DNA from: a virus
Virus record (IMG/VR): IMGVR_UViG_3300020455_000003
Coordinates: 1 to 37,783 of that record
Reading direction: 5' to 3' (one strand)
Length of the DNA stretch: 37,783 bases
Of this stretch, positions 5,883 to 7,150 are shown one piece after another. Numbering within the stretch: the stretch's first letter is position 1; each line of letters opens with the position of its first letter. The notes beneath the pieces were generated by a model. The model saw only the letters and a list, made by a program, of their open reading frames with translations. It searched no databases and was not told where the DNA came from. The position numbers and the translations under genes were made by a program.

Positions 5883-6135
5883 TTATGATGCGTTGACGTC
5901 TGCCACGATCCCATGTGCTTTTTGCGAAGTCACCTGGAGCCCGTATTCGCAGGAAATTAATCTCCGCTCTGACAGACCATTTTTCGCTAACGGCTCTTGC
6001 TTAGCAGTCTGCAAGTAAACCACTTCCGCGTGTGACGGATCCATAACAAGAACGTCCGGTGTATAATCAACACTAGACACTGTCCTAGTCCGCATATGCC
6101 GGTTCGGCACGATCTGAAGTTCGCCAAAGTCACTA
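5883..6135 (-). CDS. Major capsid protein, exon 2 (C-terminal 84 codons including stop)
   Basis: Second exon of the intron-split capsid gene. After splicing to exon 1 at 6414 the frame reads DVYI-SDFGELQIVPNRHM, then VLVMDPSHAEVVYL, EPLAKNGLSERRLISCEY and KAHGIVADV. These are the typical ordered blocks of the SU10/DUF5309 capsid C-terminus. The first residues (SDFGELQIV) lie upstream of any start codon in this frame, so they are made only from the spliced message. The exon has no ribosome-binding site of its own. Confidence 0.88.
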
Positions 6136-6413
6136 CATGCCCTTCAGTTAGATACGCTACTCTCTAACCCGCCTTTCGGCTGCTACGGCTTGATCTTTCT
6201 ACATACGCCGCAGATGAGACTATATCTTCACCCGTTCTGGGTGGCTTCCGCTTCGAGACGCTTGCCTCTACTCCCTTTCGGGATAGTCGTTGCACCTTCC
6301 TGATTTCTCAGGCTTGGCTCATGATTACCCATGTCTGGGCTTCCCATGAATTCAAAAGCTTGCATTTATATATTCCTATACAAAGACACTAGTTATTTAA
6401 AGACGCTTAGTTA
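6136..6413 (-). ncRNA. Group I self-splicing intron in the major capsid gene, 278 nt, no ORF
   Basis: Read on the minus strand. The 5' exon ends ACAU (6417-6414), pairing with GUGU (6389-6386) with a U-G pair at the splice site. The adjoining ACUA (6393-6390) pairs with the 3' exon start UAGU (6135-6132) as P10. The intron ends in G (6136). The core contains GCAACGACUA (R region) and AAGAUAUAGUC (S region), forming P7 GACUA/UAGUC (6288-6284 with 6222-6218). Hairpins fit P6 (CCUGA-GAAA-UCAGG, 6312-6299), a P7.1-like stem (UCCC-GAAA-GGGA) and P8 (CACCC/GGGUG). P3 is tentative. No homing endonuclease is encoded. Splicing gives exactly 990 nt of capsid coding sequence. Confidence 0.92.
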
Positions 6414-7150
6414 ATGTATACGTCTATGGCGGCGTTCAGTTTGCTATCTTCTGCCTCTTTGTAACGTGTCGCGTTACCAGTGAAGGTAGAGATTTTTTGC
6501 TTCTGAGCAGAACCACACATAACAACAGATGGTGTGGCACCTTGCTCCCAGCAACCCTTAATGACTTCTTTTAAAAGAGCTTCAGTAAGAGCACGGAGAG
6601 TTCCGTCAGTTGCAGCCGCGTTAACATGACCAGCTTCACCGGTTCCTGATGTTGTGCCGTTAGCACCAGAACCACCACGAGAAACGTTAGTAGTTAGGTA
6701 AGCCGGAAAACCAGCGGTTGCTCTTGCAGTACCGGCAGCGCCAGCGTTAGCTGCTACGTTGTCGAGCATCATAGCTTCCATGTCACGCTTTAGCTCCTGC
6801 AATTTGTAAGCAATTTGCTTTGCGGTAGTCTGTGCATTTGCAACACCGTTAACTGCGTTGTTAGTTGATGATACTTCTGACACTTTCGCACTGATCTGGG
6901 TATATCCCCCTTTACGAACAGCATTGGTAGGGGCCGTATTCCCTAAAGCGTCGCCCTCTAGCTGACGGTTCGCTCCCGTTGCTGCAAGGTCAACTTCACT
7001 CCACTCAAAGTAAGTATTGTCAACGTTGCGTGAGCCAATTGTGCTCATAAAAATTGTGTCTGTTGGGGTGAGAGATGTCATTGCAGAATGCAAATCTTCT
7101 CTTATGGTTGTGACGTCATACGTCTTGTTGGTCTGAGCTGCTACAGCCAT
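6414..7150 (-). CDS. Major capsid protein, SU10/DUF5309 type, exon 1 (spliced product 329 aa)
   Basis: Forms the icosahedral shell. Exon 1 encodes 245 full codons and two bases of codon 246: MAVAAQTNKTYDVTTIREDL, then TPTDTIFMSTIGSRNVDNTYFEW, the family's N-terminal blocks, and an insertion rich in G, A and T at about residues 155-185. Exon 2 (6135-5883) supplies the rest. Without splicing, translation stops at TAA two codons after the exon end, giving a truncated 247-residue product. Joined length is 990 nt, a whole number of codons. It lies directly after the scaffold gene, the usual order. An abundant late protein depending on RNA splicing is unusual. Confidence 0.9.

Follow-up and report, generated by a model that had tools for sequence, protein, structure and literature searches.

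In an uncultured marine tailed phage, as judged from the sequence, a group I intron of 278 nt that carries no open reading frame of its own interrupts the gene for the major capsid protein. The intron would be self-splicing, appears to have been transferred recently into its present allele, and would leave an intact capsid protein of 329 residues after splicing. We assign this reading as a whole a probability of about 0.88, splicing in vivo, the IA subgroup and the mechanism of transfer being the parts that we infer. The window, i.e., the whole stretch of DNA that was analysed, is the entire genome record of this phage and comprises 37,783 bases; 77 bases are identical at both ends, so that the contig is either circular or terminally repeated. 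The features discussed below are compiled in Table 1.

In the unspliced state, the reading frame 7150..6407(-) encodes 247 residues with the terminus ...DVYIN*, and the C-terminal part of the capsid protein continues in a different frame after the insert. Exon 1 ends with the bases ...GUAUACAU, its final position being 6414. Exact deletion of 6136-6413 leaves 990 nt, equivalent to 329 residues plus stop, and restores the junction DVYI|SDFG that a preliminary description of this DNA had put forward; the 330 codons given there hold as a length if the stop is counted, the residues numbering 329, and an insert does separate the capsid blocks, with a true length of 278 nt instead of 280 bases. The spliced product matches PF17236 in one domain (E 5.6e-80, residues 7-326, model 3-291 of 292) and phrog_1328 with E 6e-78. 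Taken alone, exon 1 reaches E 6e-52 with PF17236 and E 6e-50 with phrog_1328, and the ORF of exon 2 reaches E 3.5e-14 with PF17236. The solved phage capsid protein PDB 9ny2 could be aligned to the spliced residues 6-328, right through the junction (E 6e-32), and its own sequence at this position reads DVYESDFG. By these continuous matches, which bear out the capsid identity proposed early on for the split gene, the interrupted gene is that of an SU10-type major capsid protein (PF17236).

Table 1. Coordinates of the interrupted capsid gene, its intron and shared flanks in the window, and of capsid genes with several introns in other contigs.
Feature	Position	Strand	Remarks
Exon 1, major capsid protein gene	6414..7150	(-)	ATG at 7150; 737 nt; 3' end ...GTATACAT
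Upstream shared footprint, 20 nt of exon 1	6414..6433	(-)	identical in window, L104, L143
ORF-less group I intron, 278 nt	6136..6413	(-)	first base U (6413), last base G (6136)
In-frame TAA closing unspliced exon 1, P1 loop	6407..6409	(-)	seven bases inside intron
Guide (IGS) ACUAGUGU	6386..6393	(-)	read from sequence
P3 5' strand GCUUUUG, partner CGGAAGC	6353..6359	(-)	covariation
P7 5' strand GACUA, R core GUGCAACGACUAUC, guanosine-binding helix	6284..6288	(-)	Rfam alignment
P7 3' strand UAGUC, S core GAAGAUAUAGUC	6218..6222	(-)	Rfam alignment
Exon 2, major capsid protein gene	5883..6135	(-)	253 nt; 5' end TAGTGACTTTGG; stop 5885-5883
Downstream shared footprint, 12 nt of exon 2	6124..6135	(-)	identical in window, L104, L143, L142
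Multi-intron capsid gene, L112	4037-5727	(-)	four introns, RF00028; weakest 47.3 bits, just below gathering score
Multi-intron capsid gene, L087	1647-3028	(-)	three introns, RF00028
Multi-intron capsid gene, L103	2120-2713	(+)	two introns, RF00028
Multi-intron capsid gene, L111	1797-2886	(+)	two introns, RF00028
Multi-intron capsid gene, L125	3605-4690	(-)	two introns, RF00028

The sole Rfam match within the window is RF00028, which extends over 6410-6196(-) and covers the complete model (1-253) with 82.4 bits (E 1.2e-19), compared to a gathering score of 50; the covariance model thereby returns the same assignment to group I as the first inspection of the DNA. The guide contains GUGU, which pairs with ACAU of the 5' exon and places a U.G pair at the splice site (P1), and ACUA, complementary to the UAGU with which exon 2 opens (P10). 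Both pairings had been recognized before, and so had the terminal G, now located at 6136. A pseudoknot-free fold (-85.7 kcal/mol, z -3.2, equalled by none of 200 shuffles) recovers P2, P3, P4, P5, P6, P6a, P7.1, P7.2, P8, P9, P9.1 and P9.2, with GNRA loops predicted to cap P6a and P7.1. Rfam alignment and fold together agree with the R and S cores, P6, P7 and P8 of the preliminary description, and the longest frame within the intron, about 45 codons from the first ATG, is in line with its designation as ORF-less.

A set of 35 distinct related intron cores was used for an analysis of covariation. On these introns, 94.4% of the cells in the core structure are paired, as compared with 77.6% in shuffles, and two-sided changes occur in 24 of the 44 pairs; the covariation score is 0.425, vs 0.121 for shuffled alignments and at most 0.083 for slid structures. 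In P3, five of the seven pairs have changed on both sides, with 99.2% of the cells paired, and covariation extends to P7.2 (4/5 pairs) and P7.1 (2/3 pairs). Helix P7 is invariant across the alignment, partly from the choice of the search pattern, and is uninformative by this measure. The presence of P7.1 and P7.2 points tentatively to subgroup IA, and we would describe the intron as IA-like.

From these features the following sequence of events can be proposed. The capsid transcript would fold into the ribozyme, with the guide ACUAGUGU placing the 5' and the 3' splice site; the attack after U6414 would come from the guanosine that P7 binds, and the joining of the exons would yield the intact SU10-type capsid protein of 329 residues. 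Ribosomes on unspliced exon 1 would halt seven bases into the intron.

With regard to its distribution, the capsid gene is uninterrupted in all 80 best-matching relatives (the best 80 of 196 viral stretches encoding one), so that the intronless alleles for which a search had been proposed do exist; as the ranking of matches favours uninterrupted alleles, 80/80 is not to be read as a frequency. Two DNA pattern scans located the intron of the window in three further marine IMG/VR contigs only, with identities of 100% (L104), 99.6% (L143) and 95.6% (L142), and the insertion nucleotide is identical in all carriers as far as the sequence reaches. Intron-bearing alleles are thus rare, four contigs including the window. 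Compared with the window intron, that of L142 shows compensatory changes from G-C to U-A in P6a and from A-U to G-C in P7.2. L104 and L142 are partial contigs, and the latter (IMGVR_UViG_3300017914_000041) terminates at intron base 2, position 1293, which suggests an assembly that broke at the intron, e.g., in mixed intron-plus/intron-minus populations. The target ACAT|TAGT occurs in none of the 80 intronless alleles, and the empty target site GAYGTATACATTAGTGAYTT had no match in IMG/VR.

Outside the insertion site, the exons of the window, L104 and L143 are 72-79% identical. Within about 33 nt of the site the identity rises to 1.00/0.97/0.97, vs 0.79/0.76/0.72 elsewhere in the gene, and among 796 intronless pairs at 70-85% background identity not one reaches 0.97 near the site. 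The exact common tract amounts to 20 + 27 nt for window/L104 and 20 + 12 nt for L104/L143, centred on the intron; an intronless relative, L045, was left out of this exact-flank comparison on account of a 3-nt indel that puts the columns out of register. Because near-identical introns reside in divergent exons, with short shared flanks and with no intronless ACAT|TAGT allele, the alleles are taken to record a horizontal transfer of recent date in which short stretches of flanking exon were co-converted. The intron would have entered the window allele recently, passing from phage to phage at the DNA level together with about 20 nt of exon on its upstream side and 12 nt on its downstream side, and the co-converted flank would have supplied the 3' exon that matches the intron's own guide.

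What set this transfer in motion was approached by searching five endonuclease families (HNH_3, HNH, GIY-YIG, endonuclease VII and LAGLIDADG_3) in the window genome and nine or ten other records; no match at cut-off was obtained in the window genome, L104, L143 or L142, and the 278 nt, whose longest ORF from an ATG has about 45 codons, encode no homing endonuclease. A 33-residue match to DUF559 at 4324-4226(-) scores 13.6 bits, which is sub-threshold, and lies within an ORF of 66 residues also present in L045; this stretch is possibly an endonuclease remnant, or a product of chance. Among 50 intronless relatives HNH_3 was absent, and a GIY-YIG ORF was found in one. A resident endonuclease of these kinds appears to be lacking, neither the five families nor DUF559 giving a match at cut-off in the window genome or the three other carriers. 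Since no endonuclease of the families searched was found in the intron or in the carrier genomes, we infer that a nuclease, if any, came from outside, or else that recombination of capsid alleles moved the intron; given an intron without endonuclease, the cutting or recombination activity would have come in trans or from ordinary phage recombination. Among phages, collaborative homing of introns that lack an ORF is on record (PMC3984707). The earlier suggestion of mobilisation in trans is compatible with these data as regards the recent transfer, for which the shared flanks speak, and no endonuclease of the families searched turned up in cis or in the same genome to go with it.

An alternative for the transfer, which we hold to be possible if well short of an even chance, accepts the intron as real and has it carried by homologous recombination of whole capsid alleles, not by site-specific conversion of the homing type. 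Compared with L045, the window is 90-100% identical just upstream of the capsid gene, and over most of the first 650 nt of the gene the identity is about 75%, a drop that suggests an exchange of capsid alleles between otherwise near-identical phages; going by such patterns, the capsid gene region is a recombination hot spot. Along the same lines, window and L143 share an exact run of 89 nt upstream of the intron, and the window genome encodes a PDDEXK-like protein (DUF3799) as well as a RuvC-like resolvase. On the other hand, the short tracts of the pairs window/L104 and L104/L143, centred as they are on the intron, are what site-specific conversion predicts.

The insert might also be a degenerate fossil that no longer splices, in which case a protein of 247 residues and a short C-terminal protein would co-assemble, or the genome would be defective. 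The stop inside the insert, which closes the frame of exon 1, and a GTG-started ORF of 75 residues downstream would agree with such a state. It is hard to reconcile with a conserved catalytic core, complete P1/P10 complementarity and a terminal G, with near-identical copies in other contigs and the compensatory changes in L142, or with two exons free of frameshifts; moreover, exon 2 lacks a start close to its opening residues SDFG, and the earliest start listed for it is a GTG several codons in. We consider a fossil unlikely. Separate proteins as the main explanation were dropped in view of capsid matches that are continuous across the junction and of the 80 intact alleles. Retention of the intron as a regulator of capsid output, with splicing tied to translation or growth state, could draw on the in-frame stop just inside the intron, such stops having been interpreted elsewhere as stalling or clearing ribosomes and so letting the ribozyme fold (PMC3984707), and is very improbable in view of an intron missing from the best 80 of 196 relatives, of a patchy presence and horizontal transfer that fit a selfish element, and of the lack of any conserved regulatory motif among the sequences compared. 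Being absent from nearly all relatives, the intron is not a conserved regulatory device of the capsid gene, and the control point envisaged in the preliminary description received no support.

A core pattern taken from the window intron, itself a capsid intron, AAGGTGCAACGACTATC-N25..55-GAAGATATAGTC, matches 70 IMG/VR contigs (a redundant set), and in at least 47 contigs the intron resides in major head-protein genes of several families. The flanking exon ORFs match phrog_1328 (SU10-type, 25), phrog_283 (9), phrog_371 (9), phrog_9953 (3) and phrog_10 (1), and the remaining ones are mainly DNA polymerases. A looser core pattern matches at least 96 further contigs, led by tail tape-measure and ribonucleotide-reductase genes, and the bias towards capsid genes therefore reads as a property of the tight core variant that should not be extended to phage group I introns in general. 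A td-like core pattern used as comparator gave no matches and is uninformative.

Introns with the same core were also seen in DNA and RNA polymerase genes (L082, L096, L106, L109, L138 and L148), where the stretch immediately upstream of the core is not a compact P3-P6 region but extra sequence, which in L109 is an ORF of the endonuclease VII type (HNH). The aligned capsid introns, unlike those of the polymerase genes, are compact in this region. In a SAR116 single-cell genome (L158, AG-899-J15, CACBIM010000001.1) the same core adjoins a capsid gene resembling phrog_9953; this could link the phage group of L158, though not the phage of the window, to a SAR116 alphaproteobacterium as host.

Several SU10-type capsid genes of other contigs hold more than one RF00028 intron (Table 1). 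L113, L125, L124 and L112 also have an intron at DVY[IV]|SDFG, in the identical phase of the codon, and each guide fits the exons of its own gene, e.g., ACUGGCGU with ACGU|CAGU in L113. The capsid proteins concerned share no more than about 31-44% identity with that of the window, and in a tree of the intron cores (about 150 columns) the four form a clade with a support of 0.997 that excludes the window intron. In view of the divergent capsid proteins and the separate clade, DVY[IV]|SDFG has probably been colonised independently by at least two intron lineages. A family of nearly identical introns, close kin of the L113 intron, sits at GACGU|C in L100, L084, L088, L117, L121, L135, L137, L111 and L151; the DVYI|SDFG site of L113 and L125 lies six bases further downstream. 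In either location the exon sequence at the splice site is ACGU, and the family looks as though it had shifted by two codons onto a target equivalent for the guide.

It is tempting to think of a lineage of short, ORF-less introns specialised on capsid genes, which would enter unrelated capsid families at conserved codons, accumulate to as many as four copies per gene, recolonise the same codon independently, and spread without a resident endonuclease of the tested families. Such specialisation is put forward as a tentative idea, with odds clearly against it; movement would then rely on reverse splicing, on phage recombinases, or on a nuclease brought in by a co-infecting phage. Should the occurrence of short introns mostly in capsid genes hold, split capsid genes in metagenomes would often owe their state to introns and not to damage, searches that look for a capsid protein in a single uninterrupted ORF would miss them, and short co-converted flanks would offer a direct test of how introns without endonuclease spread.

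Phage group I introns are said to favour genes of nucleotide synthesis and DNA metabolism, for a reason described as mysterious (PMC12350094); the short introns assembled here form a coherent set that mostly interrupts the chief structural gene, across several capsid families and at times more than once per gene. Our searches of the open-access literature turned up no paper that describes capsid genes as a hot spot for ORF-less introns, and none on an intron in a capsid gene of the SU10 type. A close precedent is the probable group I intron in the capsid gene of mycobacteriophage LittleE, for which splicing was demonstrated by RT-PCR and protein sequencing (PMC3706429). As in the window, the interrupted gene is the late, structural gene of the major capsid protein, close relatives are intronless, U precedes the intron and G ends it. 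The LittleE intron, however, measures about 819 bp and contains a LAGLIDADG-like ORF, in contrast to the ORF-less 278 nt of the window, and it is located near the mature N-terminus of a HK97-type protein, not in the C-terminal part of an SU10-type protein. For the lactococcal phage Tuc2009, a group I intron in a capsid subunit gene is mentioned by way of citation in PMC3706429; the likeness, drawn from that description, is to a capsid-gene group I intron in an unrelated, Gram-positive phage.

Phage C72C1 (OQ984150.1; L152 3645-4846) resembles the window in its SU10-type capsid gene, which is annotated as two 'major head protein' CDSs, a split like that seen here. Between the capsid pieces lies a match to RF00028 (81.8 bits) that is unannotated as an intron. 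The public record also annotates spurious small ORFs. Its TerL is 45% identical to that of the window, and the insertion is found at about capsid residue 110 (GRDREVAL), whereas that of the window is at DVYI|SDFG. The introns of L113, L125, L124 and L112 resemble the window intron in lacking an ORF and in their compact core, insertion phase at DVY[IV]|SDFG and matching guide, and differ from it in the divergent capsid proteins, about 31-38% identical to that of the window, and in the clade of the core tree to which they belong. Set beside these systems, the window intron adds to the known capsid-gene introns of phages, and what most deserves to be pursued is how capsid genes have been entered again and again with hardly an endonuclease nearby.
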